DNA of 64,000 nt from Muricea muricata (lineage: Eukaryota; Cnidaria; Anthozoa; Malacalcyonacea; Plexauridae): the NCBI GenBank assembly GCA_963855995.1, contig OY979727.1, positions 8,340,446 to 8,404,445 of the forward strand, given 5' to 3'. The notes beneath the pieces were generated by a model that was given only the letters and a program-made list of their open reading frames with translations, searched no databases and was not told the origin of the DNA. Numbering within the stretch: the first letter of the stretch is position 1; every line of letters starts with the position of its first letter. Shown in pieces: positions 17,624-64,000 of the stretch. Made by a program: the position numbers and the translations under genes.

Positions 17624-17681
17624 GCGGTTCATCATACGTATAAATTATCATAATGATAACGAGAGCTGCTTTAACTTTCAT
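17624..17681 (-). pseudogene. Unit C: orphan signal-peptide exon of the CCP gene family
   Basis: The ATG at 17,679-17,681 starts MKVKAALVIIMIIYTYD, which matches gene A's signal-peptide exon (MKVNAALVIIVIICTYD) base for base except for a few substitutions. In gene A the exon ends GATGCATTAG|GTAAG. Here the sequence after GATGA changes to ACCGCACTTC and has no splice donor. Similarity to gene A stops at this point, and no CCP exons follow to the left. The upstream kilobase is still clearly homologous to gene A's promoter. The natural reading is the truncated end of a third tandem unit. Confidence 0.8.
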
Positions 17682-18995
17682 TCTGTCAGATTGTAACGTT
17701 GTCTTAACAAAATTCAGCGTCGGTCTTGAACTATTGTGCTGAAGCAGGAACATGTAATTCAATATGTTTAAAGACGTCTTTCGTCAAGTTTCTATAGCCA
17801 GTAGGACGCCCAAAAACAATTCAAAAAGGTCGATAAATAAGAATATAAAATAAAATGTTTATGATACAGCTATAGATTAGCAGTTGCACTAGACTGAACT
17901 TGATTCCATAGGTTTTTCTTAGAATATACAAGCTGTAATATAATTAGGTACACAAGCGTTTCTGCGAGCTAATGAAATTTGAACAGAGAATAAAACAGGC
18001 TGGAGTTGCCCTGAATGCCAGGGATACTACGTACATACCAGCATATGTCATGATTTAACTGTACCCAATAGAGCTTGTCTTTGACGAAACAGATCATTCA
18101 CGTAAAAATCCCGCAAAATAGGTCAATTATGATCATGGTGAACGAGTTGGGATTACAAGATATGACAGTTGCAATATGCCACCTTTTTCCCAAATATGGC
18201 GTCATCTTTGCGAGTTTAAGAGTAACAGAAACAATCGCAATTGTGAAACTGATGATAATTTTTGCAAAGGACATTAATGCACATGCAATAGTTAAAATAA
18301 TGCTAATCACAAAGCTTCAAATGCGTGTTTTAGCCCATTCAAGTAGTTAGTCATAAACATTACAAAATTTGATTATTATTATTAATTTTGATTATTCAGT
18401 AGATATAATTTTGCTTAAATTAAACCAATAATTTTTGACAGAGCATTGACTAACTCTTTTCTTGAAAGCAGAATTCAAATAAAATTGAGATGTTACTCAG
18501 AAACGAAGCCACAACCTTATGGTGAAGGGCGCAAGTGGTATAACCACTTTGGCACCAATGTTCCACAACTGGTGCCCATACAGGGAGGGGGGGGGGGGGT
18601 GGGGAGGGGAAAATTTGATCTGGACAGACTACACTGGCACTCAATATTTAACTGAATGCCTTTAGTTAAATTTTGCTGGAATTTTTATGCCTTTATATTT
18701 GTTCCTAAGTCCTTATATTAGTTTTCTTATTACGTTGAAAGAAAGGCAAGATTGGTTCAAATATCTTCAAATGCCGCGCCATAAGGATGCTTTCCTTCCG
18801 CCATCGCCACGGAGAACGTTTTTTTTAATGTTGGATATTCGACGAACTAATCGGAGTCTGTACGTCAAGCAGTCAATGAATCGTGAACGACTCGAAAGAG
18901 AAAAAATGTAAATTAACTTATTTCGGATCCCGTGATTATTGAAAAAGTAAGCCATTGTAGACCACATGATCTGAAATGTTTTATAATATAACTGG
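17682..18995 (-). promoter_or_regulatory. Unit C upstream region, duplicate of gene A's 5' flank
   Basis: This is collinear with 38,473-39,745. Shared blocks include the GAACATGTAATTCAATATGTTT region, AAGACGTCTTTCGTCAAGTT, ATAGGTTTTTCTTAGAATA, GGTGCCCATAC followed by a G run, and GAACGACTCGAAAGAGAAAA. It is presumed 5' UTR plus promoter, conserved in both copies. The spacer contains a G run at 18,588-18,604 that differs in length from the other copy. Confidence 0.7.
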
Positions 18996-19652: not shown

Positions 19653-19658
19653 TTTATT
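19653..19658 (-). terminator. Gene A polyadenylation signal AATAAA
   Basis: The canonical hexamer on the minus strand lies 40 bases past gene A's stop. The aligned site in gene B reads GATAAA. Confidence 0.75.
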
Positions 19659-19697
19659 CATATATCAAACGTTATTTTGCACCAGTGTTTCATAAAA

Positions 19698-31800: not shown

Positions 31801-34800
31801 TTAATTCTCGTACACGGTGCTAAGGGCAGAAAGATAGATAAACGTGTAGTTATAGTTTATGACTTAAATTACCTTTGCAACCTAGCACTGCTTATAGAAC
31901 ACTTTACTACCTTATATGGTGCGAATATTATGCAAAATATTAAAGCACTAAAAAGTTAAACGAAATTTTGTCCACATTTTGCTGAGTGCATAGGAAAGAT
32001 TAATTAAAATAACAATATATATATATATTTTACATTTTTATTAATACAATACATATATATCGAGCTCAAATAACAAATATACATAACTTTTACAGTTAAA
32101 ATCATTCAAATGACGATTACATGATGGCTTCGAAACATTGTTCTTCAATAAAACTTTTATCGCTTACGTTTGTCTCGAAATCTATTTCAAAAGTTTATTG
32201 ATAAAAATACAAATATATTTGTAGAATTGCTGTAATTCTCCCCTTTTTCGAGACATTCAACTTTCTTGGATGTTCAGATAACACAGTGACTGCGAAAAAA
32301 TCTTGAAATATTTTTATCAATCTTTTAAAAATTCATTGGATCTCTCCTCTAATTTGCATTGATTTAACATACGATTATACGTATTGTCCAAAATAGTCAT
32401 TCATGCATCTTACTAGAAGAGAAAAGAGTTGTACAACAAAGCAGCAAGACACAAAGGCTAATAAACATTGTTGACTGGTATAGCATAGTCATACTAAGAA
32501 GGAAAATTTACTTTGTGAAATAAAATCCTAAAAATGTAATAAGTACTTTATAGCTACAGTAGCTATAAATTTTTTATACAAAACGGCAAATTGGGGAAGG
32601 AAAAAACATTCCTCGGAAAATAGCATCATTTTAGTCGCCGACGTAAAACTCTGGAGCTATTTAAAAACCTCTAAACATCGTTTACCAACCTTTACAAGTT
32701 GGTTTCTTGTGATTCCATTGTAAATGTCCGATACAGGTGATCTTGTGCTCCCCTTCCAAGACGTAATCTGCTTTACAACGAAAACTTAGCGTGTCTCCTT
32801 TTAAGTTTCCGCCTCCATCAACCCAACCATTTCTGATACTTTTAATTGGAATACATATAGCTGAAGTAAACAATACAATATGTGAATATTTTATTAGTTT
32901 TGTCATTTTGTACCAGGTGTTGGGCAAAACAGTCCAGAACTATGCCTTAATTGAGAGCGTGCATTAGAAGCATTTAAAAACAAATTTCGGAAGTTCCATA
33001 TATTCTAATGAATTTTAAAAATCTATGCTTTTGTTATCGAAATATTCAAAGTGGTTAATTTTCCGGAAAAAATTTTGAAAGGAATCGAATGGTTCAGTTT
33101 TATCACTACCAACATTGAGCCATCAATATGATTAATAGGTTGAAATACTCACTGAATGATTAACATAAAAAAATCGTTAAAATTATAACTAGTTGACTTA
33201 TGCTAGAATAATTAGTGCACTGAATGATGATTTTCTCAGCACAGTTATATAATATGATTTTAAAGCAGGTCTGTCACAACTAATTTGCACAGTGCTGCAC
33301 TCATTGTGTAGTGCCACTGGACAAAAGAAAGAGACAAGGAACTGATGAAAATATGGCATAACATACACCATCATGTTGGCTCACCTCCCTTATGGTTAAG
33401 CTACACATCTTTTGTCTTCTTATTTTCTTGAAGCGAAAGGGGTGAGGGGGGGGGGGGTAAGGTTCAAGATTAATCATTTAGTAGAATCATACTTGGATAC
33501 TAATGTTGATGCTGCAATTTATTGGCTAGTACTCTACTCGCTATCTATTGCTCGACTGCTGGCGAGTAGCAAAACATTAATTTTTCTAGTGCATTTTTTT
33601 AATCCAAATACAATTTGTATTAGTTTTTAATGTAAAATGACTTAAAAATCTATTATTTATCTCAAATTCTACTAAAACAATTAGATTAATCGCTTTTAAT
33701 TTTTATGCAGTGATAGTGGATTCGGGCTTTGCCCTCGTCAACTATCACCGCAAAGAAATCTCGAGCTTGTATGTAATTGTTTCATATAATGCAAGCTTTG
33801 CAAATTTTCTTGTCTCTTTCATTGATCGTATCCACTCAACTTCCTTGTGTTTTTTTTTTTGTAAGTTTATTTCTTACCAGAAATATACCTATTCTTATCG
33901 CTATCATTTTGTGGAACAGTCAGTTCCATAACTAATATAATTTACAAGGAACTTATCCCTAGTATTCTTTTCAAATGAAACGTACTAGAAATTAAAGTTT
34001 GTCGAAAGAACGTCATGTAAATTCTCCTAAAATTAATAACGACGCCTGAAACGCAACTGTAGTCCCCTTCAGCGACAGTTTGAGCTCTTGCTCCTCTTTA
34101 ACAAGTAAATATTGTACATGAGCTGCTATCTTATTCCAATTAGTGTAAATGAAGTGGAACGCCCCTGTAACAGAGCCTTAAAAATTTCGTCTCATACTAT
34201 ATTTTTTCACTAGCTCACATACCTAAGCATCTGGGCATTCGGTCTGACCAATTACCATTATTGCATTTCAGTCTTGATGAACCAACCAGTTGATGACCAT
34301 AGGCGCAACCAAATAAAACATACGAACCATGTTTTCGACTTGCACCATATGTGTAACCGTCTGATAATAGCGGTAAGGGCGAACATGAAGCTAGAGTGGC
34401 GGATTAATAAAAAACTCGTATTTTACAGGTAAAAATAAGAACGTTTCGCTGACGTGGGCTTTTATACAACAACAGTTAAACAACCAAGCGACAGCACGAT
34501 CAGCTGTAGCAAATGCTAGTAAAATTTTTTGTAACTTTGCACACAAGATGACGATTGAAAAAGCAAACTACTTCAACACTTTGATCAATTAGGTTAATTC
34601 GGGGCATACTTGACGGTGGTGCTAAATGAGATAAAAGCTGTTTTCCGTAAAATAACTGAGAAAATTTTTCAGTGACTTTTTATAGCTTATAGGTATTTTC
34701 CTTTACTTGAAATAAAGCATCATGGTAAAGAAGAGCATCTTACACGTACGTTTAGAATCCTTATATATCTCGTTTACCCTATTTTCTATTCCCAAATGCA

Positions 34801-37800
34801 CATGGCTACGAGAAAAGAAAACCTTGTTTTCACAGATAGTTGATAAACTGAGTATAGCGTAAACAGACGAACTGTTCTTTGACTATTTCATGTTTCATAT
34901 GAGTCACGATTTAGGGGTTGTTACTATTTTTAGATTCTCAGAATTCGGATTAGGGTTAGTATTGGGGTAGGATTAGGATTAGGACTCGGTTAAAGGTTAG
35001 GATTGGGATTTAGATTATGGTTAGAGATAGGTTTAGGGTTAGGATTGGGATTAAGATTAGGATTTTGGTTAGGATTATAATACAAAAAGTCTAAAAATAG
35101 AAACAACCCCTAAAACGTGACAGGTATATCATGTTTATTTGTTGTATTAGTAAAACCTGCACAGTTAATGCTCTTGTTTAATCTGAGTAAAACCCCTGAT
35201 AATACGTTCTAATACCAACCTTTACATGCTGGTGTCCCGTGGCTCCACCGTCCTTTTCTGGTACATATGACTCTGCGCTCCCCTTCCAAAACATAATCTT
35301 TTTTGCAACGAAAACTTAGCGAGTCTCCAGCCATATAACCGTTTCCTTCAACCCAACCGTTTTCAATTGTTTGAATTCGAGGGCATAGAGCTGTAAAAGG
35401 CACATTCTCTGCATTTGTAGAGGTTGCATTATGTCAGGGGCAGGGGTCGCAGAATATTCATAGTTGAGGGGGCACATATTCATGTAATCGTGATCACAGA
35501 TTGCAGTAATAATCCATTCAGTGTAACTGCTAATTGCCACAAGTGTCCCAATTTCTGTATGGTAGCTATATCAGGTGTAGTGGGTTTTTATAAATTCGTT
35601 TAAAAACAAATTTTCTAATACAAAATTTTACGGCATTAATGCGATCGCTCCCGGCAGTTCAAGATTATTTCAAAATATATATTTGAGATTGACTGATGGC
35701 GATAGATTCTACAACTCTTAGAATGTTTGCATGTCTGACTTTATGTTTTTGACTTTGAAAGTGGGAGTGATGATCCTTTGTATTTTATATGTCATATTGT
35801 AACAACACGCAAGAAACGCGTGTTGAAAAGCTGCTCTAAATTATCGAGTTCACTGAATAATTAAATAATATTATTATAATATTGTGTTATTTATAAAATT
35901 GTGTATTATTATAAAATGTTGTTATTTGACTAATCTGAGAATGTGTCTACTGGAGCTAAAACGAGAGTCATAATTTCGGTCTGATTCTTTTTTTTTTTCG
36001 CCCAAGGCTAATTCTCCCACGCGGCCACTCTATATATTGACCCCTCGTTATAAGTCTTACAGGCATGTGATTATTCAAGCTTAACTCATTGGTAGCTCTT
36101 CAGTCACATCAGTTTCTCATCTCATTCGACCTCCTGTCCTTGATCACGACGGGTCTAGTAAGTGGCAACATTTTGCTTTCTTTGCGTACTCGATCCATAA
36201 AAAACGGCGATACGCTTTCTATGCGCACTCGATCCAAGCAAAACTGGCAGTATACACCCTTTCTGGGCGTAGGCGATCAAAACTAAATGCACGCGTACTC
36301 CATCAAATATATGTGAATGTATGCATGCTTTCTAGGCGTACTCGATCCAAACAAAACGGCTGTACGCCTTCTGTACGTACTCGATCCAAACAAAATGGCC
36401 GTATTTACGCTTTCTACGCGTACGTAATTAAAACTAACCAACCATAGACATACTTCGACTACTCGATCTAGTTTATGCCCTATCGTTATCCACCATATGG
36501 GAAGAAAATGTTCCCCTGAGAGTACTTAATTATTATGTACTGTAAATGGCCTCAGCGAATGAAAAGTGAATCTTGATGTGAATACGACTGAATACGACTA
36601 TACGATATCAAAGAGTAGAGACTACAAAGAGGGTCCACTTCATTCAAAAAAGCGTAAGGTGCTGTCGTCATGATACGTCATGTTCTTAGCTAGTGCCCTA
36701 AACAGAAGCATTTCCCCCCGGTATTAGTACCCATTTTAAAATATTTCCGGGGGGTTGACTTCCTCTGTTTAGGGCACTGGCTAGGAACATGGCGCCCATG
36801 ACCAATATTGCATGCTCGTTCCTCCGGAAATATTGAAAATGGTTACTAATACCGGAGGGAAATGCTTCTGTTTAGAGCACTGGCTAGGAACATGGCGCCC
36901 ATGACGTATCATGACGACAACACCTTGTCGGTCCCTCTGGACCCTGGAAGTGGACCCTCTTTGTAGTCTCTACTCTTTGACGATATGTTTTGATATTAAT
37001 TAAGCACAGCTTGCATACGTGTCTGTAAAGATGGACAGCATGATTGAGGCCCAATTCGTATTCAATTCGTATACCCCTTCGCGTTTCCGGATCCGTTAAA
37101 ATTGGTCGTTTTAGAACCTTTTGAATGAGAATTTTGCACGGGGACTTGTTGCCGATTTAATGTTTCAGAATATATGCTGAATGTGTTCTAAACGTTGTGT
37201 CGCTGATGTAGATAAACACAGCAATGTTTCGCGATGGCACGCGGCCAAGAGTGATAGAATCTGTCGAAATTTGTCGTTCTGAAACATGTTGGTTGAGCAT
37301 TTTTGCACCTAAAACCTTCTTTCAGTTTAGATGTTTCAATATGCATGTTAAAATTTGCTTTTTGACTTTCGACTTAAGGTTTCAAAAATGTAAATGATGT
37401 GTCATCCGTGCTTGTTTTCCATGCACCATCCATTATCCATGAACACCGAGCCCGTTTCTGACACTGACGAACAAAAAAACAGACGAGCCATTAAGATTCG
37501 GCTGCTCCGCCTGCGCAGACGGAGTAAATATATTGGCGTTGGTGCCAATAGCACAACCTTGGTAGCCCAAAATTGCTTCAATATAGATATATGTTCATTT
37601 ATGCTATAGGTGTAAAGATTGTTACTCAGCTTTTAATGCGCCGCCAGCGCCGTCATCAGTTACATCACATGCAAGAAAATATATATAAACATGACGCATC
37701 GTGAGCAGAGCGCGGCTAAGCGCCCCTTTTGCTCGAGTAAACGCGCAGCAATATTACGCGTAGCAGTATTATAAAATTCGTTAAAATGGATTAATAAAAA

Positions 37801-38472
37801 CCCGCCACACCTGAAAATTTGATGCTCAAGCTGTAGCGTTATTGTCAGCCAGCATAACGATTTAGCCCGGCTAGATGCAAATATTATCATGCTCGTTGAC
37901 AGTGAAAGCGACTCGACTATCAAAGAAATTATTACTATAGGTATGCGTTAAAATATGCAGCTTATACAGTTGCTCAGAGACATGTATAACTGGATAGAGC
38001 ATTCCCCTGAATTCAATCAAACAATTGTGAAGCTTGAATATTTAAAATGAGATGAGATTTCCACAAGTCGCATCGTGACCCGTACAACGTGGCCAAATTA
38101 TTAAGGAAATGACATTGCACATTTAAGCGCTCATATGCATGCGCGTGCAATTGAATCAGTTAGAAATTCGTTATGTTGATCCTACCGCATTAAAATCACA
38201 AAATAGGAGAATAGAATTGTTAAGCAGTTTATACTAGCTCAGTAAACTTACGTTTTAAAAGATACTAGATATAGTCGTTTTAATGTTCAAATTGTAGGGG
38301 AAGATTATTTTACAAACATCTTTCTGTGAATATCTTTGCGCACCGACCTTTAATAAACATTACTGTGACAGTATATGGACGTTAAGTGGCGTTTCTAAAA
38401 ACTGTTCAACTTACCTAATGCATCATACGTACAAATTATCACAATGATGACGAGAGCTGCGTTAACTTTCAT
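19698..38472 (-). CDS. Gene A: secreted protein with 16 CCP (sushi) modules, 17 exons, about 944 aa
   Basis: The exons (listed singly) are a 58-bp signal-peptide exon followed by 16 exons of 168-188 bp. Each encodes exactly one CCP module: four Cys, a Trp before the last Cys, and the Gly/Tyr/Phe framework. All introns are phase 1, so any module can be added or removed without a frameshift. The summed coding length, 2835 bp, is a multiple of three. The N-terminus is a typical short hydrophobic signal (MKVNAALVIIVIICTY). The last module runs straight into a short tail ending KTS and a stop, with no membrane span or GPI-like tail, so the product should be soluble and extracellular. CCP strings are typical of complement regulators and adhesion or recognition proteins; the ligand is unknown. 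Several N-glycosylation sequons are present. It is transcribed toward the left, with gene B upstream and the unit C relic downstream. Confidence 0.88.
20392..20568 (-). CDS. Gene A CCP 15 exon
   Basis: 177 bp, acceptor TTTCAG|GTTTA, donor CTTG|GTATGT. The module contains DCPVVHKIDGGFAIRNESFH and ends PPPRCL. It has an NES sequon. Counterpart: gene B exon at 43,654. Confidence 0.9.
20569..22557. other. Gene A intron 15 (between CCP 14 and CCP 15)
   Basis: About 2 kb. It holds a half copy of MITE family 1 near 20,975-21,010 and the 'TGTCCC' foldback element at 21,403-21,762. No further CCP exon is seen. Confidence 0.5.
21403..21762. mobile_element. TA-flanked MITE with GGTGTCCC ends
   Basis: The 360-bp element begins CATGGTGTCCCAAAAACCCC and ends with the inverted GGGGTTTTTTGGGACACCCTG. 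The arms continue through AACTATTGAAA / TTTCAATAGTT. A TA dinucleotide flanks both sides (21,401-2 and 21,763-4), as expected for Tc1/mariner-type target duplication. It is non-coding. Confidence 0.88.
22558..22743 (-). CDS. Gene A CCP 14 exon
   Basis: 186 bp, the longest internal module; acceptor TTTTTTAG|GTAAA, donor CGAG|GTGAGA. The sequence runs KPKFCQEISMEYKRKV... to WSAPSPTCKLR. The counterpart at 45,650 in gene B has Pro instead of Gln after the first Cys. Confidence 0.88.
23399..23544. mobile_element. Foldback element
   Basis: GATAGACAATGATCACG and AGTGGAATATAGACTCCC on the left are matched in inverted form by GGGAGTTTATATTCCACT and the CATTGTCTATC end. About 145 bp, non-coding. Confidence 0.82.
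23547..23793. mobile_element. Second, adjacent foldback element
   Basis: TTAGAACATGATCACA and its inverted TGTGATCATGTTCTAA bound about 245 bp. Inner arms AGAGCATACTAATGAGCC and the inverted CTCATCAGTATGCTC form a nested hairpin. It abuts the previous element by a few bases. Confidence 0.78.
24040..24213 (-). CDS. Gene A CCP 13 exon
   Basis: 174 bp, acceptor TTTCAG|AAAAG, donor CATAG|GTATGA. KCSDPSGKTNATVIGNQFYH start; ends GTIPFCI. It is the KCSDP subtype, the same as CCP 8. NAT sequon. Confidence 0.9.
24681..24851 (-). CDS. Gene A CCP 12 exon
   Basis: 171 bp, acceptor TTATAG|CGCCC, donor TTAC|GTAAGA. Module APCPHMPEIQNGNITG to WTQKQPQCL. The counterpart is gene B 50,220-50,390, with the same donor. 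Confidence 0.9.
25730..25900 (-). CDS. Gene A CCP 11 exon
   Basis: 171 bp, acceptor CTCTTAG|CACCA. Module APCERILRVPAYGRITQQ to GVTPFCL. The donor is TTAT|GTAGGC, where sister exons have TTAG|GTAGGT or TTAG|GTAAGC, so it is weakened at the last exon base. It is a paralogue of CCP 4 (31,652) with one extra residue. Confidence 0.82.
26436..26606 (-). CDS. Gene A CCP 10 exon
   Basis: 171 bp, acceptor CTGCAG|CTGTA, donor AAAG|GTGATG. AVCRRILKIANAWIDGNG start; ends TTPTCK. W subtype (W(I/V)(D/E)G.G followed by DYVL.GE). Closest to gene B exon 59,703. Confidence 0.9.
26911..27206. repeat. Inverted repeat built on TCGAGAGTCGA motifs
   Basis: GAGTCGAGAGCAAAAGTTGA on the left and CGACTTTTGCTCTCGACAC on the right are inverted copies, with flanking GAGTAAC / GTTACTC. 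This is a foldback element in gene A intron 10. Confidence 0.7.
27456..27623 (-). CDS. Gene A CCP 9 exon
   Basis: 168 bp, acceptor TTCTAG|CACCG, donor TTAG|GTATGT. APCPPLPRLSDGYKYSTL start; ends DQVPRCL. L subtype (DGY.Y...HG.YV.F.CAYGH.LVGS). Closest to gene B exon 60,147. Confidence 0.9.
27624..28904. other. Gene A intron 9
   Basis: It holds plus-strand open frames, the longest at 28,380-28,694, with no recognised domain. No exon is supported. Confidence 0.4.
28905..29078 (-). CDS. Gene A CCP 8 exon
   Basis: 174 bp, acceptor TTGTAG|AAAAG, donor AAAG|GTACGA. KCSDPSGRSNAYVNDNTFYH start; ends TIPSCK. KCSDP subtype, counterpart of gene B 51,053. Confidence 0.9.
29241..29414 (-). CDS. Gene A CCP 7 exon (GC-AG intron)
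   Basis: 174 bp, acceptor TTTTTAG|TCAAT. VNCGDPGHPTNGLTTAIGG start; ends KNLPMCL. The donor is TTAG|GCAAGG, a GC rather than GT donor with an otherwise strong consensus. No counterpart was found in gene B, so this module is A-specific or lost from B. NAT sequon. Confidence 0.86.
29683..30080. mobile_element. Foldback MITE of about 400 bp in gene A intron 7
   Basis: The ends CATTGGACCATTCCCCAATTA / TAATTGGGGAATGGTCC...CCAATG bound long imperfect arms. These include TTTGTATTACGCGAG / CGTAATACAAA and GCGTTACCAC / GTGGTAACGC around a central loop near 29,880. It is non-coding. Confidence 0.88.
30217..30387 (-). CDS. Gene A CCP 6 exon
   Basis: 171 bp, acceptor TTACAG|GTCCT, donor AAAG|GTAAGG. 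GPCRRFASPANGEIVKDG start; ends SAVPRCK. Counterpart: gene B 52,273, which has one more residue. Confidence 0.9.
30516..30689 (-). CDS. Gene A CCP 5 exon
   Basis: 174 bp, acceptor TTCAG|CTCCT, donor GGAG|GTTTGT. APCKQFDARPFAGGYIKR start; ends NRLPSCG. No internal Met, so it is easy to miss. Counterpart: gene B 53,303. Confidence 0.9.
30690..31651. other. Gene A intron 5
   Basis: Contains the 141-bp near-perfect palindrome at 31,337-31,477. No exon. Confidence 0.5.
31337..31477. mobile_element. 141-bp near-perfect palindromic MITE
   Basis: The arms AGGCCGGTTTCCACTTCAAT through CGAAACGTAGCGTATTTCAT are repeated almost without error in inverted orientation around a loop of about 30 bp. TAA on both sides (31,334-36 and 31,478-80) is a possible 3-bp target duplication, as in Harbinger-type elements. 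Confidence 0.9.
31652..31819 (-). CDS. Gene A CCP 4 exon
   Basis: 168 bp, acceptor CCTTAG|CACCG, donor TTAG|GTAGGT. APCTRINSLAHGGITQQG start; ends ATLPTCL. R subtype (GFRHNE..KFECDRDYYL). Nearest to gene B 54,216; CCP 11 is a more distant paralogue. NAT sequon. Confidence 0.9.
31820..32689. other. Gene A intron 4
   Basis: AT-rich, with short TA runs near 32,010. The stretch at 32,460-32,650 matches 60,620-60,810 in gene B. MITE family 1, which precedes that stretch in gene B, is absent here. Confidence 0.5.
32690..32860 (-). CDS. Gene A CCP 3 exon
   Basis: 171 bp, acceptor CTTCAG|CTATA, donor AAAG|GTTGGT. AICIPIKSIRNGWVDGGG start; ends KKPTCK. W subtype. Nine residue differences from gene B 60,827. 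Confidence 0.9.
32861..34222. other. Gene A intron 3
   Basis: It is collinear with gene B 60,998-62,416, including the GGCGAGTAGCAAAAC and CAGTCAGTTCCATAACTAAT blocks, and carries a G run near 33,449. No exon. Confidence 0.55.
34223..34390 (-). CDS. Gene A CCP 2 exon
   Basis: 168 bp, acceptor CTCTAG|CTTCA, donor TTAG|GTATGT. ASCSPLPLLSDGYTYGAS start; ends DRMPRCL. L subtype. Almost identical to gene B 62,417 (differences A/G, L/Q, A/T, Q/R). NWS sequon. Confidence 0.9.
34903..35121. mobile_element. 219-bp MITE filled with telomere-like repeats
   Basis: The ends GTCACGATTTAGGGGTTGTT and the inverted AACAACCCCTAAAACGTGAC (with CTATTTTTAGA / TCTAAAAATAG) enclose about 130 bp of degenerate (TTAGGG/TTAGGATT)n. 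The matching intron of gene B (about 63,105-63,160) lacks the whole element, so it inserted after, or was lost since, the duplication. Confidence 0.85.
35220..35390 (-). CDS. Gene A CCP 1 exon
   Basis: 171 bp, acceptor TTTACAG|CTCTA, donor AAAG|GTTGGT. ALCPRIQTIENGWVEGNG start; ends GTPACK. W subtype. It differs from gene B 63,232 at only six bases, four of which change amino acids. Confidence 0.92.
36172..36425. repeat. Degenerate tandem repeat
   Basis: About five irregular units share GCGTACTCGATCCAAACAAAA followed by CGGC and TACGCTTTCT. Units have diverged and the spacing varies. Confidence 0.75.
36605..36986. mobile_element. Foldback MITE with nested inner repeats
   Basis: The outer ends ATATCAAAGAGTAGAGACTA and the inverted TAGTCTCTACTCTTTGACGATAT bound about 380 bp. 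Inside, TAGGAACATGGCGCCCATGA occurs twice in direct orientation, and blocks with AATACCGG and AAATATTTCCGG pair in inverted form. It is non-coding. Confidence 0.85.
37060..37545. repeat. Dispersed repeat, copy 2 (copy 1 at 7.14-7.58 kb)
   Basis: Shares ordered blocks with 7,140-7,575 (AATTTGTCGTT, CTAAAACCTTCTT, GTTTAGATGTT, an A run, and a short GC-rich hairpin ending GGAGTAA). Confidence 0.6.
38415..38472 (-). CDS. Gene A exon 1: signal peptide
   Basis: 58 bp from ATG (GACAGG before it, A at -3) to donor CATTAG|GTAAG, phase 1. It encodes MKVNAALVIIVIICTYDAL: a Lys near the start, an 11-residue hydrophobic core, then small/polar residues. Its phase fits the first CCP exon. The unit C copy at 17.6 kb confirms that the exon is a duplicated family feature. 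Confidence 0.88.
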
Positions 38473-39745
38473 CCTGTCAGATTGTAAATTTGTAGCGGAG
38501 TAAGAGCTTTAGTCTAGGCTCGTCGTCTTAACAAAATTCAACGTTGGACTTGAACTATTGTGCTGAAACAGGAACATGTAATTCAATATGTTTGAAGACG
38601 TCTTTCGTCAAGTTTCTATAGCCAGTAGGACGCCGAAAAACAATTCAAAAAGGTCGAATAAATAAGAGTATATAAAATAAAATGTTACTGATATAGCTAT
38701 AGATGAGCAGTTGCACTCGACTGAACTTGATTTCATAGGTTTTTCTTAGAATACACAAGCTGTAATTAGGTACACAATTAGCGTCACTTCGAGCTAATGT
38801 GAAATTTGAACAAAGAATAAAACAAGCTGAAGTTGCCCTGAAAGCCAGGCATACCATGTACATATCAGCATATGCCTTTTAACTGTACCTTATAGAGCTT
38901 AGCTGTCTTTGAAGAAACAGATCCAATTATTTACGTACAAATACCGCAAAATAGGTCATTTATGGTACATGGTTGAACGAGTTGGGATTAAAAGATATGA
39001 CAGGTGCAATATGCCACCTTTTTCCCAAATGGCGCCATCTTTGCCAGTTTAAGAGTAACAGAAACAATCGCAATTCTGCAACTGATGACAAAATTTGTGA
39101 TTAATGCACATGCAATAGTTAAAATAGTGCTTATCGCAAAGCTTCAATGTATGTTTTAGCACATAAACATTACCAAATTTCATTATTTTCATTAATTTTA
39201 ATTACTTAGTCGATATAATTTTCCCTAAATTAAACCAATAACTTTTGACAGAGCACTGACTTACTCTTTTCTTGAAAGCAGGATTCAAATAACATTGAGA
39301 TGTTACTCAGAAACGAAGCGACAACCTTATGGTGAAGGGCAAGTGGTATAACCACTTTGCCACCAATGTTCCACAACTGGTGCCCATACATGGGGGGGGA
39401 GAGGGATGGGAAAATTTGATCTGGACAGACTACACTGGCACTCAATATTTAACTGAATGCCTTTTGTTATCTTGGGTAGAAAGAGGTAGGGCCTATTTGT
39501 CATATATATCACAATCCACTGTTTAAGTTCACACGCGGTTCGATCTGTTCGACCTGCTGACGATGCGATGAACTAATCCGACTCTGTGCGTAAAGCAGTC
39601 GTTGAATCGCGAACGACTCGAAAGAGAAAAAAAAATGTAAATTAACCCATTTCAGGAGTACGTGATTATTGAATGATCCATAAAAGTAAACCATTTCAGA
39701 CCACATGATGTGAAAAATGTTAGTTTGACATGTAATTCACACACC
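38473..39745 (-). promoter_or_regulatory. Gene A 5' flank, conserved with unit C
   Basis: Collinear with 17,682-18,995. It is the likely promoter and 5' UTR. An AT-rich TTTTATATA stretch near 38,670 could act as a TATA element. Both copies also keep a CTG(T/C)TTCAG sequence about 95 bp (A) or 65 bp (unit C) upstream of the ATG that could be a 5'-UTR splice acceptor. Confidence 0.55.
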
Positions 39746-40485: not shown

Positions 40486-40601
40486 TACAGTGTGAAATTG
40501 TTGAACAACACATTTAATTGACAAGGTTTACACATAACCAAATGGAACGTAAACTAGCTTAAATGCCATATCATCAATTTCTTCCTTCAACGTGTCCGCC
40601 T

Positions 40602-41744: not shown

Positions 41745-41804
41745 AATATATCTAAAGGTTATTTTCAAATTTTGCATCACTGTTTCATAAAATCTCGGAT
41801 AAAA

Positions 41805-56900: not shown

Positions 56901-59900
56901 CACGCAATATATTTTATTTAGTGTCTGTCGAGATTACGAACGTTTTGTAAAGAAATTATTGATTTTAAACCATTGTTATGGAAAATATTCGCGAGAATCA
57001 AATAGGAGAAGTGTTACCCTACCAATATGAGCCTGAAGTAGGGGGAAAAGGCACCAATATAAGCGATAGATGAAAGCGACTCGGACCGAGAGAGCAATTC
57101 GTCGTCCTCGAGCGAAGAAATCGATCAAGAGTTTGAAACAGCTAATGCATGGCGCCTTCACACTCTAAGCTGGTGTAAATGTGGACATAGCACTATATCA
57201 AAAAAATTGATTGAATGTTTTTTTTTGCCATGAGAGTACGACGAGTATGATGATCTTCTTCACCATTGTGAAACACAGGGACAGAAGTGCATGACATTAC
57301 ACCCAGACTTTCAAGACAACATGCTGTCAGAAAGTGTTTTAAAGATAGATGTATGACGCTATCTTGAAGAAGACTGGCCACTTGACGACGAAGATCTGGA
57401 ACGGGTACACAAACTGTATCACTGGTAGCGTACCAGCGATGTTCTCGCTGGGTTTTCCAGATTTTTTGGGGAAAAAACAGAAGGCCTTTTCCTGCTTGTA
57501 TTTATACAAAAATACGAGAACGATTCGCATTACCAGATGGACTGTATACTCATTTTAAATTCGCTAAAAAATCGAACCACTACTTGTACGTCAAAAGATA
57601 TAATCTAATAATCTGTGGGTTAGGCTTTGCACGAAATATTACGTGTCACTATGAACGCGTGCATAAGTGTATGCACACAGAAATAATTGAATGTTCTAGT
57701 ATCTGTCCTGTATATTAAACTTGCGTATTTAGTTTACAGTCAAACATGGCAAATACACACAAAGGAAGCATAACATTTGTGTATAATGCGCTAATACTCT
57801 GTTTGTTGTGATGATGGAGGTGGTGACATGCTGACATATATAGATTATATAGTGTATACTTTCAAAGCGGCATACTTCATAACCCAGACTCGGACTCAGA
57901 CCCGGACTCGTGTTCTTTAAGACTATTTTAGTTCATATTTTATGTTTTGCGTAACTATTTTTGCAGCGAAGCATGTATATGCACGTTGGAAAATATTATA
58001 TATGTGTAGTATGTTATAGAATTACACACCATTGCCTTTATTCAGTCAATGTCTGTACGCTTCTCACAGCACAAATATATGTACCTTACGGCCGAAAATG
58101 CATCTACAATCTAGTTTTGGTACATTACTATACAATACTTCACTTAATAAATCAAATTGGGATGCATTTGTATGTTTTAGTTGAGCCTTTCTTTGATCTT
58201 TCAAGCTTATCGCATTGTAGCTTATATTGTTGGATTTGCGCTTACCCAGCCATCTACGTCACAAGCATAAACTAGCATACGCGGAATTTGTTCAAGATGG
58301 CGCCCGGCAGTTAAAATTTCGCGAATGTTACTTCGATATTTCTTCACAACTATATGCCGTAGAAAGGTAAAAATACGAAATTAAGTATTCCATAGGTGAA
58401 CCTGATAAGTCTGGCCAATAAAAATTTTTAGTGCCATTGTCCTTTAAACATTTTTATAGGGCTAAATACTTAATAGCTTTTATAAAAGTATTCTTAAAAT
58501 ACATGTACTTGTTAATTTCATATTTTCTTCGCGTTGAAATTCTTAAATTGTTTTGTTGTGTTGTGAGAATGAGCTTTTCAAATTGCTCTCGCGGTGGGTA
58601 ATTACATTGAACACACAATTAAATAAAAGTAAATAAAATCGCTTTTCAGGTGCGGTGGTACGGCCACACACAATTCGTTGTGTTTAAAAACAAAGCCGGT
58701 ATTTTGAAACACAAGTTGATTTATGCAACCGGAAAACATCGAATGCTGTTAATTAATATTACTAATCTATTTTAGAATATCAAAATTCTAATCTTTAATA
58801 TTTGATATATTTCGAATGAAATCTCAATACACAAATAACATCGTGGTTGATTCGCGAATACGGTTTTTATTAACTCGTGAATTATTACAAGCTCACGCGT
58901 TCGTTTGTAATAATTCACTCGTGAATAAAAACCGTACACGCTCACCAACCATGAAGTAATCTCTATTTTTCACTGCTCAAATTAGTTATTATAGCACCTT
59001 AAAACAATTCCTGATTAAAGATAAAAAATTCGGCGCGCAAAATTCTGCCTTGTGTAAAAACAGGTTAAGACAAACTTGTGAACCTAAAATTGATTCATAT
59101 CATCTCCAACTCATTAATAATTCATGAGCAAATTAGCGAATGAACTCGCCCTAATTCGTCACATGATTGACGTTGGATACCCAAGGAAACACGCTAAAAA
59201 TCATATACCATCACTGTTGTTAGATCAAAAACGGTTTTAATCTAATAACTGAAATCATAATTACAAATTCATCCTAATTACTCCATCTTCGCTCATGTTC
59301 AAATGATCAAGGTCTGTAATAAATTCTACACGCCCTACACATTTCTGTCTTACAATGGACTATAGAAATTAACTTACAAAAGCAGGAAGTAGAATACTTA
59401 TCTCCATTGTTCTCAAAGACAAAAACAAATTGCTTTCATAGGTCCCCCGTTAGCGCTTAATAAATTGAACAGCCAATGAAATGTTTTCGTTTGAGATGTT
59501 ATGTAAACAACTCGTTTCTCGTGTGTCATCAGGGGAACCAAATGCTCGAAAACAATAAAACACTCGCGCTTCGCGCTCGTGTTTCATACCGTTTTCTCGT
59601 GTTTGGATCCCCTGATGAAACACTCAAACTCGTTGTTTACATATAACATCACGTAATATTCCGGCGTGATTAAAAACCTGAAAAACTGATTCTGATACCA
59701 ACCTCTACATGTTGGTGTCCTGTGACTCCATCTTCTATTTCCAGTGCACGCGATGCTGTGTTCACCATCCAAAACGTAATCTGTTGTGCAACGGAAACTC
59801 AGAGTGTCTCCTTCTAAGTAACCGTTTCCATCGATCCAACCATTGCCAATTCCTTGAATGCGACGACATACGGCTACAGGAAACAACACAGTATCCGAAG

Positions 59901-62900
59901 TTTTGTTATTAACTAAATGATTATTATCAACTATGGTCGCGTTAACGTTTTAGAAATTACTTTAGGGACCAACGAAAATGCCCACTGACGATTTGGGGTG
60001 CAGGTAACGACAATGGACATTACCGATTCTTGCCATAAATGAGAGCAACCACTCGTAAATATCTTAGCAGTTAGACATTTTCTCCGAAGCCGAGCGTGCA
60101 ATGGTATTCACTTTCTTAATTCATCGTTGTACCATAAATCACATACCTAAGCATCTTGGCATTTTGTCCGACCACGCGCCGTCATTACATGTTAGTCTTG
60201 GTGAACCCACCAATCGGTGACCATAGGCGCATCGAAATTCAACATAGGCGCCGTGTGTTCGCTTTTTGCCATATTTATAACCATTTGATAGTCGTGGTAA
60301 AGGTGGACATGGTGCTAACAAAACAAGGTTTGTACCTATAACTGTTCTAACGGAAACACTGGTTCTGCTAAAACCACAGTAACACACTAACAATTACTTC
60401 ACAATTATTCAAAGCATAATTTTGTGGAAACACCAGGTAAATTTACCATCGCAAAGCTTTCGATCCGTAAGCTCATATCTTCTTAAGAGCTTCACAATCT
60501 TCGTAATGCATTATTATTATAGCACTGATGAGAATGCGAGCGTACGGATCGAAAGCTTAGTAAATTTACGTGGTTCAGTGTTTCCACAAAATTATACTTT
60601 GATTGATATTCATCATGCAAATAAACATTGTTGACTGGTGTAGCATAGTCATACTAAAAAAAGAAAATTTGCTTTCTAAAATCGTAGAAATGTAATAAGT
60701 AGCTATAGAGATTTTTTATACAAAACGCGAAATTGGGGAAAGAAAAAGCATTCCTCCGATAATAGCATAATGTTAGTTGGCGACTTAAAACTCTAGCTAG
60801 AGCTATTTAAAACAGTGTTTACCAACCTTTACAACTGGGTTTCTTGTGATTCCATCGTAAATGTCCGATACATGTGATATTGTGCTCGCCTTCTAAGACG
60901 TAATCTATTCCACAGCGGAAATTTAGCGTGTCTCCTTTTAAGTTTCCGTCTCCATCAACCCATCCATTTCTGATTCTTTCAATTGGAATACATATGGCTG
61001 AAGTAAACAATACACTATGTGAACATTTCATTAGTTTGCCATTTTGTACCATGTGTTGGGCAAAAAAGTCCAAAACAATACCTTAATTGAGAGCGTGCAT
61101 TAGAAGCATTTAAAAACGAATTTCGGACATTCCATATGTTCGAACGAATTTTAAAAATCTATGCTTTTGTCATCGAAATATTCAAGGTGGTTAATTTTCC
61201 GGAAAAAATGGCTCAGTTTTATCACTACTAACATTGAGCCATCAACATGATTAATACTTTGATTCATATAAAAAAATCGTTAAAATTATAACGAATTAAC
61301 TTGTTGCTATTTTCATTTTAGGACAGTAATGTTAATATAATATACATTGTTAGTAATAGTCTAGTGGTTAATTTCACATAGGTGCTAAAACTAAACAAGC
61401 TATCTATTGTCACTGAATGGTGATTTTCTCAACACAGTTACATATAACATGATTGATATAAAGCACGTCTTTCACAAAAAATTTGCATAGTACTGCACCC
61501 ATTGTGTAGTACCCTCGGACAAAAGAAAGAGACAAGGAACTAATGAAAAGATGACGTAACGTATATCGTTCATGTTGACTCATCCCCCATATGGTTAATT
61601 TACACATTTTTTGTCTTTTTATTTTTTTAAGAGAAGGGGGAGTAAGGTTCAAGATTGATTGCATTTATTAGAATCATACTAGCATATTAATGCAAATGCT
61701 CTAATTTGATTGGCTACTTTACTCGCTATCTATTGCCCGACTGCTGGCGAGTAGCAAAACAATAATTTTACTGGTGTATTTTTTTGTGATTCAAATACAA
61801 TTTGTATTAATCTTTAATGTAAAATGACTTAAAAATCAATTATTTATCTCAAATTCTACTAAAACAATTAGATTAATCGCTTTTGATTTCTATGCAGTGG
61901 TAGTGGATTCGGGCTTTGCCCTCGTCAACCACCACCCCACAGAAATCTCGAGCTCGTAATCTAATTGTTTAATATATTAATAATTGATCATATCCAATCA
62001 ACTTCCTTGTGTTCTTTTTTGGTGAGTTTATTTTTTTCGCTCTTATCAGAAATATACCTATTCTTATCGCTATCATTTAGTGGAACAGTCAGTTCCATAA
62101 CTAATATAATTTATAAGGAACTTATCCCTAGTATTCTTTTCAAATGAAACGTATTGGAAATGTAAGTTTGTCCAAAGAACGTCCAGTAAATTCTCCTAAA
62201 ATTAATAACGACGCCTGATACACAACTGTAGTCCCCTTCAGCGACAGTTGAGCTTGTGTTAACGCTTGCTCCTCTTTAACAAGTAAATATTGTACGTGAG
62301 CTATTGACATATTCCGATGCGTGTAAATGAAGTGTAACGGCCCCTGTAACCTAGCCTTGGAAAATTTCGCCTCATACTCTATTTTTTTCTTAATTTTGTT
62401 TCACTAGCTCACATACCTAAGCATCTGGGCATTCGGTCTGACCAATTACCATTATTGCATTTCAGTCTTGATGAACCAACCAGTCGATGACCATAGGCGC
62501 AACCAAATAAAACATACGAACCATGTTTTCGACTTGTACCATATGTGTAACCGTCTGATAATTGCGGTAAGGGCGAACATGAACCTAGAGTGGCGGATTA
62601 ATAAAAAACTCGTATTTTACAGGAAAGAAAAAAAAAACGTCCCGCTGACGTGGGCTACAACAACAGTTAAACGACCAAACGACAGCGTGATCAGCTATAG
62701 CAAATGCTGGTAAAATTTTTTGTAACTTTGCACACGAGATGACGATTGAAAGAGCAAACTGTTTTAATACTTTTATCAATTAGGTTAAGCCGGGGCATAC
62801 TTGACGGTGGTCCTAAATGAGATAAAAGTTGTTTTCCGTAAAATAACTGAGAAAATTTTTCAGTGACTTTTTATAGCTTATAGGTATTTTCCTTTACTTG

Positions 62901-63402
62901 AAATAAAGCATCATTGTAAAAAAAAGCGTTTCAATCTTGCATGTACGTTTAGAATCTTTATATGTCTCGTTTACCCTATTTTCTATTCCCAAATGCACAT
63001 GGCTATGAGAAAAGAAAACAAATCTTTGTTTTTGACAGAAACTAAGTTGATAAACTGAGTATAGCGTGAACTGACGAACTTTAATTAACAAACTGTTCTT
63101 TGACTATTTCATGTTTACTTGTTGTCTAATGCCGGGATCATCCCCTAAGATTGTTGTATTAGTAACACCTGCACAGTTAATGCTCTTGTTTAATCTGAGT
63201 AAAACGCCTGATAATACGTTCTAATACCAACCTTTACATGTTGGTGTCCCGTGGCTCCACCGTCCTTTTCTGGTACATATGACTCTCCACTTCCCTTCCA
63301 AAACGTAATCTTTTTTGCAACGAAAACTTAGCGAGTCTCCAGCCATATAACCGTTTCCTTCAACCCAACCGTTCTCAATTGTTTGAATTCGAGGGCATAG
63401 AG
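41805..63402 (-). CDS. Gene B (5' end outside window): secreted CCP protein, at least 14 CCP modules plus a Ser/Thr stalk
   Basis: Sixteen exons in the window: 14 CCP exons and two 63-bp stalk exons, all phase 1-1, ending QKTS and a stop as in gene A. With a 58-bp signal exon like gene A's (expected right of 64,000) the coding length would be 2613 bp, a multiple of three, about 870 aa. The exons correspond to gene A modules in the order 1, 2, 3, 9, 10, 4, 5, 6, 8, 12, 13, [stalk], 14, 15, 16, so the order differs from gene A and the GC-donor module (A CCP 7) is missing. It should be soluble and extracellular, like gene A. The Thr/Ser/Pro stalk could carry O-glycans and separate two CCP blocks. 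Introns are longer than in gene A because of transposon insertions, notably 5.3 kb between exons 59,703 and 54,383. Confidence 0.87.
41987..43653. other. Gene B last intron, with transposon debris
   Basis: It holds a short open frame at 42,232-42,291 (MSDDEHSESEFYYPEECNLN) running into a good donor, AAT|GTAAGT, which could be the first exon of a lost mobile-element gene. A palindromic stretch lies at 42,396-42,505 (ACGGTAAAATATTA / TAATATTTTACC). A large inverted repeat lies at 43,350-43,605. Confidence 0.45.
43350..43605. mobile_element. Near-perfect inverted repeat close to an exon
   Basis: The arms of about 115 bp include CATTCCGTATATCTTCGCCC, TCAACCTAACTTTGCTTT and AAGGAACTCGG, around a loop of about 10 bp. 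The right end lies only about 50 bp from the donor of the CCP b13 exon. A stable hairpin is expected in the pre-mRNA. Confidence 0.88.
43654..43830 (-). CDS. Gene B CCP b13 exon
   Basis: 177 bp, acceptor CATTTAG|GTGTA, donor CTTG|GTATGT. DCPVVHKIEGGFAIRNESYH; ends LAPKCL. Counterpart of gene A CCP 15. Confidence 0.9.
43831..45649. other. Gene B intron between b12 and b13
   Basis: AT-rich. It contains a foldback element at 44,889-45,027. No exon recognised. Confidence 0.5.
44889..45027. mobile_element. 139-bp foldback MITE
   Basis: AATACATGGGTGC ... GCACCCATGTATT ends; the arms pair through CAGATTTATTTC and GTGTTGAACATGATAT. Non-coding. Confidence 0.88.
45650..45835 (-). CDS. Gene B CCP b12 exon
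   Basis: 186 bp, acceptor TTTTAG|CTAAA, donor GGAG|GTGAGA. KPKFCPEIPTEFKRKV start; ends SAPSPTCKLG. Counterpart of gene A CCP 14. Confidence 0.9.
45836..46574. other. Gene B intron between stalk exon 2 and b12
   Basis: No exon. A minus-strand frame at 46,323-46,553 has no recognised domain. Confidence 0.4.
46575..46637 (-). CDS. Gene B stalk exon 2
   Basis: 63 bp, phase 1-1. Acceptor TTTTTAG|TTAGA, donor CTCCAG|GTATAT. It encodes VRTIPTKISTTSDAKTKISA: rich in Thr/Ser/Lys, no Cys. It is likely an extended, possibly O-glycosylated linker. It has the same length as stalk exon 1, and both begin with x-R-T. Confidence 0.72.
46638..47339. other. Intron between stalk exons
   Basis: It contains several short repeats of ACCCCTTTGA(A/G)G(A/G)GCT with inverted partners near 46,990-47,190. 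No further exon is seen. Confidence 0.45.
47340..47402 (-). CDS. Gene B stalk exon 1
   Basis: 63 bp, phase 1-1. Acceptor CTTTTCAG|CCCGA, donor ACACCAG|GTAGGC. It encodes ARTDPPSTVRATSATTKVVT: Thr/Ser/Pro-rich and Cys-free. It is probably a duplicate of stalk exon 2. No equivalent was found in gene A. Confidence 0.74.
47403..48160. other. Gene B intron before stalk exon 1
   Basis: Nothing recognised. Confidence 0.4.
48161..48334 (-). CDS. Gene B CCP b11 exon
   Basis: 174 bp, acceptor CTTTAG|AAAAG, donor TCAAG|GTAGTA. KCSDPSPKTNANVIGDQFYH; ends GVIPSCQ. KCSDP subtype, counterpart of gene A CCP 13, but the NAT sequon is lost (NAN). Confidence 0.9.
48335..50219. other. Gene B intron between b10 and b11
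   Basis: About 1.9 kb with no exon. The stretch 48,900-49,110 is dense in GAATATT-type words in both orientations, likely a decayed foldback element. Confidence 0.45.
50220..50390 (-). CDS. Gene B CCP b10 exon
   Basis: 171 bp, acceptor TATAG|CACCG, donor TTAC|GTAAGA. APCPHLPQIRNGNIHGSK; ends QQQPQCL. Counterpart of gene A CCP 12. NGT sequon. Confidence 0.9.
50391..51052. other. Gene B intron between b9 and b10
   Basis: Gene A has three more modules at this place (CCP 9-11), all missing here. Nothing else recognised. Confidence 0.5.
51053..51226 (-). CDS. Gene B CCP b9 exon
   Basis: 174 bp, acceptor TTCACAG|CAAAA, donor AAAG|GTATAG. KCSDPSIHSNAWVLGDEFYN; ends GRIPSCK. KCSDP subtype; counterpart of gene A CCP 8. 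Confidence 0.9.
51227..52272. other. Gene B intron between b8 and b9
   Basis: In gene A this interval holds CCP 7 (CGDPG type). I searched for the CGDPG start and NLPMCL end and found neither. AT-rich. Confidence 0.5.
52273..52446 (-). CDS. Gene B CCP b8 exon
   Basis: 174 bp, acceptor TTTCAG|GTCCT, donor GAAG|GTAAGG. GPCRRFAAAPTNGEIVLQG; ends SALPRCE. Counterpart of gene A CCP 6. Confidence 0.9.
52447..53302. other. Gene B intron between b7 and b8
   Basis: Contains a repeat at about 52,845-52,905 that recurs near 56,290-56,350 (AAATCATGGCCGTG.A / TTTATATGTGATA), and a CTTTATCAGATATA block near 53,010 also found near 20,170. Confidence 0.5.
53303..53476 (-). CDS. Gene B CCP b7 exon
   Basis: 174 bp, acceptor TTTTAG|CTCCT, donor GGAG|GTTTGT. 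APCKKHDARPFAGGYIKK; ends NRLPSCG. No Met codon. Counterpart of gene A CCP 5. Confidence 0.9.
53477..54215. other. Gene B intron between b6 and b7
   Basis: No exon or clear repeat. Confidence 0.4.
54216..54383 (-). CDS. Gene B CCP b6 exon
   Basis: 168 bp, acceptor CTTAG|CACCG, donor TTAG|GTAAGC. APCRGINAPDHGRVTQEG; ends DRPTCL. R subtype, counterpart of gene A CCP 4. Confidence 0.9.
55900..56590. mobile_element. Foldback element with long arms
   Basis: The left arm (about 55,900-56,040) includes GCGCGAAGGGG and CGCCTGGCAGATCTTG. The right arm (about 56,407-56,590) has the same words in inverted form, plus CGAACGATATTTTTTCACT / AGTGAGAAATGATCG and TTACATGAAGTAT / ATACTTCATGCG. The loop holds a short plus-strand frame (MSTLDLVEEDLEGLNLQ) that may be the start of a lost element gene. 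Confidence 0.7.
56679..58443. mobile_element. 1.77-kb DNA transposon with TTAA target duplication
   Basis: It begins AGGACAATGGCACTAAAATT and ends with its inverted form. The imperfect terminal repeats are about 48 bp. Each end is flanked by TTAA (56,675-78 and 58,444-47), the target used by piggyBac and Kolobok elements. The interior carries a broken P2X7-type C-terminal domain rather than a recognisable transposase. Confidence 0.85.
56978..57540 (+). pseudogene. Broken P2X7-type C-terminal domain gene inside the transposon
   Basis: Plus-strand translation in three successive frames gives the order expected for this domain. An ATG start is followed by a PYQYEPE motif, an acidic/Ser stretch (DESDSDRESNSSSSSEE), then LSWCKCGH and LIEC, then QKCMTLHPDF, and finally a YLEEDWPLDDEDLE tail. 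One frameshift lies near 57,065, another near 57,225, and stops near 57,355 and 57,426. The WC.CG and C-x-T-x-HP-x-F motifs are what identify it; in the family such Cys/His residues bind zinc in the cytosolic region of P2X7 receptors. Some Cys of the full motif are missing here. It is non-functional. Confidence 0.65.
58844..58951. mobile_element. 108-bp palindromic element
   Basis: ATACGGTTTTTATTAACTCG and GTGAATTATTACAA are repeated in inverted form around a 13-bp loop. The ends TGGTTGA / TCACCAACCA also pair. Confidence 0.85.
59494..59650. mobile_element. Inverted repeat next to the CCP b5 exon
   Basis: TTATGTAAACAACTCG and TCATCAGGGGAACCAAA pair with inverted copies at 59,605-59,650. It lies about 50 bp from the exon's donor. 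Confidence 0.8.
59703..59873 (-). CDS. Gene B CCP b5 exon
   Basis: 171 bp, acceptor CTGTAG|CCGTA, donor AGAG|GTTGGT. AVCRRIQGIGNGWIDGNG; ends RTPTCR. W subtype, counterpart of gene A CCP 10. Confidence 0.9.
60147..60314 (-). CDS. Gene B CCP b4 exon
   Basis: 168 bp, acceptor TTAG|CACCA, donor TTAG|GTATGT. APCPPLPRLSNGYKYGKK; ends DKMPRCL. L subtype, counterpart of gene A CCP 9. Confidence 0.9.
60409..60602. mobile_element. Foldback MITE, family 1 (copy 2)
   Basis: The same ends as copy 1 at 174-339 (TCAAAGCATAATTTTGTGG and inverse) and the same CGCAAAGCTTTCGATCCGTA arm. It sits in gene B between b3 and b4. Confidence 0.88.
60827..60997 (-). CDS. Gene B CCP b3 exon
   Basis: 171 bp, acceptor CTTCAG|CCATA, donor AAAG|GTTGGT. 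AICIPIERIRNGWVDGDG; ends KKPSCK. W subtype, counterpart of gene A CCP 3. Confidence 0.9.
60998..62416. other. Gene B intron between b2 and b3
   Basis: Collinear with gene A 32,861-34,222 over most of its length. No exon. Confidence 0.55.
62417..62584 (-). CDS. Gene B CCP b2 exon
   Basis: 168 bp, acceptor CTCTAG|GTTCA, donor TTAG|GTATGT. GSCSPLPQLSDGYTYGTS; ends DRMPRCL. L subtype; nearly identical to gene A CCP 2. No Met in the upstream frame, so easily missed. NWS sequon. Confidence 0.9.
62585..63231. other. Gene B intron between b1 and b2
   Basis: Collinear with gene A 34,391-35,219, but lacking the telomere-like MITE. Confidence 0.6.
63232..63402 (-). CDS. Gene B CCP b1 exon
   Basis: 171 bp, acceptor TTTACAG|CTCTA, donor AAAG|GTTGGT. 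ALCPRIQTIENGWVEGNG; ends GTPTCK. It is preceded, by phase and by analogy to gene A, by a signal-peptide exon beyond the window. Confidence 0.91.
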
Positions 63403-64000
63403 CTGTAAAATGCGCATTCTCAGAATTTTTGGAGGTTTCATTATGCCAGGGGCAGGGGTCGCAGAACATTCATTGTTGAGGAGGCACATATTAATGTATT
63501 CGTGTTGACAGATTGTAGTAATAATCCATTCAGTGTAACTGCTAATTGCCACAAGCGTCCCAATTTCAGTATGGTATATCAGGTGTAGCGAGTTTTTATT
63601 AATCCGTTATAAGCAAATTTTCTAATACAAAATTATACGGCGTTAACGCGATCGTTCCCTACAGTTCAAAGTTATTTCAAAATATATTTGAGATTGACTG
63701 ATGACGATAGATTCTACAACTCTTCTTGACTCGGTGTCCGACTTTATATTTTTTACTTTGAAAGTGGAAGTGATGAGCCTTTGTATTTTACATGTCATAT
63801 AGTAACAGCGCGCTAGAAAAGCGTGTTGAAAAGCTGCTCTAAATTATCGAGTTCATTGAATAATTAACAGACCGCAAATACATTATAATATTGTGTTATT
63901 TATAAAATTGTGTATTATAAAATTGTTATTTGACTAATCTGAGAATGTGTCGACTAGAGCTAATTTCCATAATTTTTGTCTGGTTCTTTTTTTTCGCCCA
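63403..64000. other. Start of gene B intron 1
   Basis: Collinear with gene A 35,391-36,005 up to the window edge. No exon. Confidence 0.6.

Follow-up and report, generated by a model that had tools for sequence, protein, structure and literature searches.

The 64,000-nt stretch of DNA analysed here (the window) carries on its minus strand, head to tail, gene A, gene B and a broken third unit, and the CCP (complement-control, or sushi) part of both genes is built of exons that each encode a single module. This one-module, phase-1 anatomy, with a signal exon in gene A, is practically certain. We put at about even the chance that the locus represents a tandem family of secreted, CCP-only proteins that would serve as soluble, multi-site ligand binders and that change by duplication and module turnover.

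Anatomy of the array

Gene A, 38472-19698 (-), consists of a 58-nt signal exon and 16 CCP exons, and gene B, 63402-41805 (-), shows 14 CCP exons; the 5' end of gene B lies beyond the window, and its signal exon is presumably found past position 64000 (Table 1). GC content is 30-42% across the window in 2-kb steps, the introns are spliceosomal, and the DNA is animal-like. When the exons of gene A are joined in silico, they give an open frame of 944 aa with 0 internal stops. An AG acceptor and a phase-1 start are found for 30 out of 30 CCP exons, and a phase-1 donor for 28 out of 30, with 27 GT donors and one GC donor (A7, TTAG/GCAAGG); the GT donor of A11 (TTAT/GTAGGC) is a weak one. These 28 exons are class 1-1 modules, each exon holding a single module and being bounded on either side by phase 1, and the other two are the terminal exons. 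The preliminary description had called all 30 symmetrical, which slightly overstates the case, as the last exon of A and that of B end in a stop codon. These ends read PVC-YKTS-stop in A16 and PVC-QKTS-stop in B14; in each exon a phase-1 GT in poor context (ACAA/GTTGAT) lies 10 bases past the last cysteine codon, and some reading on by splicing at this GT is conceivable. On the 3' side of gene B, the only counterpart of the AATAAA of gene A within 400 nt of the stop is a GATAAA at 61 nt.

The third unit resembles gene A at 84% from the 5' region through the start codon into the signal exon, most of which it covers. Translation from its start codon at 17681 meets a stop after 35 aa. Similarity to gene A stops about 6 bases short of the donor, the splice donor is lost, and no CCP exon was detected beyond this unit within the window. 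Because the unit is broken, at least three units were probably present in the array at an earlier time. Our exon-by-exon check agrees with the preliminary description on the head-to-tail, minus-strand array, on its one-module, phase-1 build and on the truncated unit, whose break point matches the start given there, 17624. By eye, 18480-18580 and 39280-39400 (-), both in the conserved 5' region, resemble a tRNA-derived short element; a sigma-70 scan of the 5' region is uninformative for an animal gene.

Several other features lie in the window. Between genes A and B, at 39993-41266, is an element of ~1.27 kb whose 32-nt inverted-repeat termini (97%) adjoin TA; it holds several long inverted repeats, one pair of which marks a second element at 40243-40491. 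A dispersed repeat (60409-60627, 173-365 and 23255-23313; both orientations, 71-88% alike) is perhaps a small mobile element. The gene A intron between CCP exons 1 and 2 contains a degenerate ATTAGG array at 34943-35077 (22.7 copies, 64% match), and in a long gene B intron an open frame at 57386-57715 (+) weakly resembles the P2X7 C-terminal domain (E 0.00081, with 19.8 bits against a cut-off of 23.5). At 3217-4608 (-) there is a single open frame of 463 aa, the next longest listed being 124 aa; it gave no Pfam match at 0.001 and no PDB match at E 1, and Beta-Casp at E 0.4 is below the Pfam cut-off. Rfam gave no match at gathering score over the window.

Table 1. Positions of the features of the array within the window
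Feature	Position	Strand	Evidence or remark
Truncated third unit: 5' region and signal exon copy	17630..18668	-	DNA match
Gene A 5' region (presumed promoter and leader) and signal exon	38421..39469	-	84% to truncated unit
Gene A exon 1: start codon and signal peptide MKVNAALVIIVIICTYDAL	38415..38472	-	donor G/GTAAGT, phase 1
Gene A CCP exons 1-4	35390-35220, 34390-34223, 32860-32690, 31819-31652	-	profile and splice sites
Gene A CCP exons 5-8	30689-30516, 30387-30217, 29414-29241 (GC donor), 29078-28905	-	
Gene A CCP exons 9-12	27623-27456, 26606-26436, 25900-25730, 24851-24681	-	
Gene A CCP exons 13-16	24213-24040, 22743-22558, 20568-20392, 19885-19698 (stop TGA)	-	
Candidate poly(A) signal AATAAA, gene A	19653..19658	-	40 nt past stop codon
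Gene B CCP exons 1-5	63402-63232, 62584-62417, 60997-60827, 60314-60147, 59873-59703	-	
Gene B CCP exons 6-10	54383-54216, 53476-53303, 52446-52273, 51226-51053, 50390-50220	-	
Gene B CCP exons 11-14	48334-48161, 45835-45650, 43830-43654, 41986-41805 (stop TGA)	-	
Young 5' block, gene A (exons 1-3 and introns)	32457..36004	-	82-89% to 60617-64000
Young 5' block, gene B, partner of 32457-36004	60617..64000	-	reaches window edge

CCP modules and the predicted product

Each of the 30 CCP exons (16 in A, 14 in B) encodes one complete four-cysteine module, and the columns C, F, C, C, W, P and C are invariant in all of them. Pfam Sushi (PF00084; cut-off 20.7 bits) matches gene A in 16 stretches (438.5 bits, E 2e-134) and the visible part of gene B in 14 (385.1 bits, E 9.1e-118). 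An HMM built from the 30 modules and searched against six-frame, stop-to-stop translations no shorter than 15 aa scored these modules at 59.8-79.7 bits, as expected for the modules it was built from, and found no further CCP module in the window, where the best other score was 7.6 bits and one residue-shuffled set reached 9.7. Neither this HMM nor nhmmer nor tblastn revealed a convincing CCP pseudo-exon in the window. Outside known exons tblastn gave 11 weak matches (best E 0.013); those at 11329-11400 (+) and 17427-17293 (-) are without the CCP cysteine pattern and were rejected as CCP. Module A01, the one of the 30 that was modelled, the other 29 being treated as an alignment, is predicted to adopt the CCP beta fold (pLDDT 94.1), with a TM-score by query of up to 0.94 to solved CCP modules among the matches listed; its fold neighbours are beta-2-glycoprotein I, an E-selectin SCR, CD46, factor B, DAF and factor H.

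The linkers between modules measure three residues in 24 of 28 cases, and longer ones of 6 and 8 residues precede modules 14 and 15 of A as well as 12 and 13 of B. Hydropathy peaks at 2.26 in the gene A signal, and the ALA directly ahead of the first CCP is, judged by eye, compatible with cleavage by signal peptidase. Past residue 25 values stay at or below 1.13 in A, the maximum in B is 0.80, and the scan found no second long hydrophobic segment behind the signal in A and none in visible B. Pfam at E 0.01 detected no domains other than Sushi-type ones in A or visible B, the weaker match F54D1_6_C being described as sushi-like. This is in accord with the earlier reading of a product that has a signal-like N-terminus and consists of CCP modules alone. 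Since there is neither another Pfam domain nor a hydrophobic stretch past the signal, solubility is probable, and secretion is predicted from the N-terminus. Its anatomy would make it a rod of 16 modules that might bind surfaces, glycans or complement-like fragments, and that it acts as a soluble ligand binder or regulator seems to us an evenly poised proposition.

A complement or immune role of A and B is possible on the strength of the CCP fold, a fold found as well in proteins of matrix, adhesion, synapses and clotting. More specifically, the product could be a soluble inhibitor of the factor H kind, binding C3b-like fragments and keeping an invertebrate complement pathway in check, which we regard as rather unlikely. 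Such a role would be consistent with a CCP-only, probably secreted and clustered protein having one exon per module, and when solved structures are searched by sequence, complement receptor 1, factor H and complement receptor 2 come out on top (best 60 of 108 matches). However, the top-ranked chains are also the longest CCP strings, which suggests that the ranking tracks module number, and module A01 on its own fits many different CCP proteins about equally. Moreover, the best factor H stretch among the best 60 of 108 matches covers residues 566-1205 and not the N-terminal SCR1-4, the regulatory end of factor H in PMC6404389. According to PMC6683126, a four-motif regulator pattern, M5-M3-M1-M2(-M4) across three neighbouring CCPs, is found in several invertebrate phyla down to Cnidaria, but also in nematodes and flatworms without C3-like proteins. 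Sushi strings are in addition prone to false grouping: PMC3927616 notes the mistaken placing of factor H, factor XIIIb and sushi strings of invertebrates in a single family. CCP-only strings arise repeatedly, so that kinship with factor H may or may not lie behind the likeness. Searches with the first 476 of the 944 residues of gene A found no relatives in prokaryote contigs (10 pattern matches, 0 relatives) and none in viral contigs, collections in which an animal gene is not expected.

Module pairing and order

All 14 B modules have a best match in A, reciprocal for 13 of them, and written in A numbers the order of B is 1 2 3 9 10 4 5 6 x 12 13 14 15 16, where x is B9. Thirteen of the 14 B modules are paired, and A7, A8, A11 and B9 are without a partner. 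Module A7 has no close relative (best 33%), and A11 is equidistant from A4 and B6 (dS 0.80 and 0.77). The pair A8/B9 was rejected, as it is saturated while A8 is nearer to A13 and B11 (dS 0.38 and 0.42). Module 13 seems to have been copied later to give A8, which stands between modules 7 and 9, and B9 looks like an old relative of the module-13 type.

Block 9-10 stands at a different place in the two genes. Its dS is 0.40 for B4/A9, compared with 1.00 for both B4/A2 and B4/B2, and 0.30 for B5/A10, compared with 0.81-1.19 for the other four pairings tried; the comparison modules are similar ones from the 5' block. Either the block moved, or the ancestor had two such blocks and each gene lost another one. 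The trees back the rearrangement of this block in part: in the protein tree (54 columns) eight of the 14 pairs form strongly supported sister forks, A9/B4 and A10/B5 not among them, and in the DNA tree A10/B5 forms a moderate fork (88.6/83) and A9/B4 none. Taken together, pairing and dS make it highly probable that modules have been rearranged between A and B, in keeping with the earlier proposal that they could be duplicated, deleted or swapped.

Divergence of exons and introns

Over 14 pairs, A8/B9 included, dN is 0.12, dS 0.34 and dN/dS 0.36; over the 13 pairs without A8/B9 the values are 0.11, 0.29 and 0.38. Judged by these ratios, the A and B proteins are constrained on average. Accelerated evolution of the whole gene is therefore rejected, and the epithet "rapidly evolving" in the preliminary description is not supported for amino acid change. 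The last CCP, A16/B14 (-), has 17.5 nonsynonymous and 3.5 synonymous changes, with a Fisher p of 0.04 against the other 13 pairs (rounded counts, uncorrected). A dN/dS below 1 speaks against an arms race across the whole protein, whereas A16/B14 alone leans the other way.

Constraint of this degree, together with a CCP-only product and uniform short linkers, would also fit a structural or adhesive secretion, in which the chains belong to matrix, mucus, egg coat or gland, play no immune role, and have their length and avidity set by module number. CCP modules do occur in synaptic and other non-immune proteins (PMC9083331), but Pfam finds no partner domain typical of matrix proteins, and we hold this reading to be possible yet somewhat doubtful.

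Synonymous divergence is very uneven among partner exons. Each value is estimated from ~32-39 synonymous sites, and dS is 0 for A2/B2, 0.06 for A5/B7, 0.10 for A16/B14, 0.12 for A14/B12 and 1.16 for A12/B10. When codons were permuted among exons, 0 of 5000 permutations matched the unevenness in each of the sets of 14, 13, 11 and 10 pairs; with A8/B9 and A12/B10 both left out, the remaining nine pairs gave 11 of 5000 (A8/B9 was included in the 14- and 11-pair sets and left out of those of 13, 10 and 9). It would be tempting to see in this unevenness, in the differing module order and content of A and B, and in the broken third unit as a sign of turnover, a locus for self/non-self or pathogen recognition that is kept variable by module exchange among copies and alleles. 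However, overall constraint (dN/dS 0.36-0.38) and an array of two genes and one fragment in a single window make this improbable.

Introns were compared in nine matched pairs, with 40 nt trimmed from each end, against 30 shuffles. The two pairs inside the young 5' block align strongly (scores 344 and 722); five of the seven outside it fall within the range of the shuffles, and two keep a remnant (18 and 34). Among the latter is intron A4-5 (score 18, z 4.2), and intron A5-6 measures 48 nt after trimming. A simulated 882-nt intron still scores 244 or more at d 0.06-0.12 when indels are numerous; at d 0.4 numerous indels bring the mean down to 21, and the simulated intron is lost too. This simulation represents one intron, longer than A15-16 (426 nt). 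Outside the 5' block, alignments extend 2-40 nt past the edge of most exons, the longest being those of A10/B5 (129 nt) and A14/B12 (74 nt), and that of A16/B14 runs into the 3' part. In an ungapped comparison of 10 pairs, identity is at chance level 10-30 nt beyond the exons, which fits exon exchange and also silent-site constraint with fast intron turnover.

Because introns are unalignable beside exons of low dS, the histories of exons and introns seem to differ at A14/B12 and A16/B14, and less clearly at A5/B7; for the remaining exons ordinary divergence may suffice. We would give even odds to homogenisation or exchange between A and B at the scale of single exons, an estimate that we lowered because, of the five informative introns, one measures just 48 nt once trimmed and a remnant survives in another. 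A bolder version, in which the locus is a cassette system for recognition or regulation, with single CCP exons swapped between neighbours while introns drift apart, strikes us as a long shot. Exchange would then proceed by short-tract gene conversion or through spliced cDNA, keeping some modules uniform while others diverge or move.

The same comparisons bear on whether the second copy might be an assembly artefact, namely a misplaced allele or a false duplication. The 5' block shared by A and B at 82-89% could suggest this, but the best DNA alignments between the two halves reach about 90% or less, most introns outside the block are unalignable, and the module orders differ. Alleles or false duplicates should align throughout, and A and B do not, so false duplication is rejected; we consider an artefact scarcely credible.

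Discussion

We speculate that tandem duplication of whole units founded the array, that the 5' block was copied later, and that modules were gained and lost through phase-1 introns. Short conversion tracts might also have acted, possibly confined to exons, since only the exons are still alike; spliced-cDNA copying or silent-site constraint may be alternatives to conversion, which the present data do not separate. If relatives and other individuals prove alike, module birth, loss and exchange could be read exon by exon in a secreted CCP family, which would tell whether long CCP strings are diversified for recognition, as the preliminary description supposes.

The locus is a clean yet ordinary case of class 1-1 module shuffling, and the type of gene is familiar. 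What is new here is the pairing of modules between A and B, the displacement of block 9-10 and the uneven dS between partner exons. The excerpts of the literature searched hold no published description of the A/B CCP gene family. From class 1-1 shuffling in animal proteins generally, A and B do not differ in principle; the distinctive point is that two neighbouring copies differ in module order.

By anatomy, A and B would stand nearest to factor H or to the factor XIII B chain. In the human CFH-CFHR cluster one SCR is encoded per phase-1 exon. As in that cluster, A and B are CCP-only strings from tandem copies, with secretion predicted from the N-terminus. PMC6404389 describes an FH of 20 SCRs with FHR1-5 in tandem beside it, and segmental duplications that lead to deletions and hybrid genes. 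In contrast, the window holds no short FHR-like gene, the regulatory and surface-binding ends are not recognised in A and B, and alignment between the two copies fails for most introns. The likeness is one of anatomy, and orthology would be putative. The factor XIII B chain, beta-2-glycoprotein I and C4b-binding protein are likewise secreted and made of CCP modules, with fewer modules per chain and in some cases special C-terminal features. The first two are among the sequence matches to A and B (best 60 of 108 matches), and for all three the CCP build is alike in anatomy, shared descent being again putative. Long CCP runs also occur in Polydom/SVEP1, beside vWA, EGF and pentraxin domains, and in CSMD, where CUB and CCP domains alternate. 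Unlike these proteins, A and visible B show neither vWA, EGF nor pentraxin domains and no CUB match (Pfam, E 0.01).
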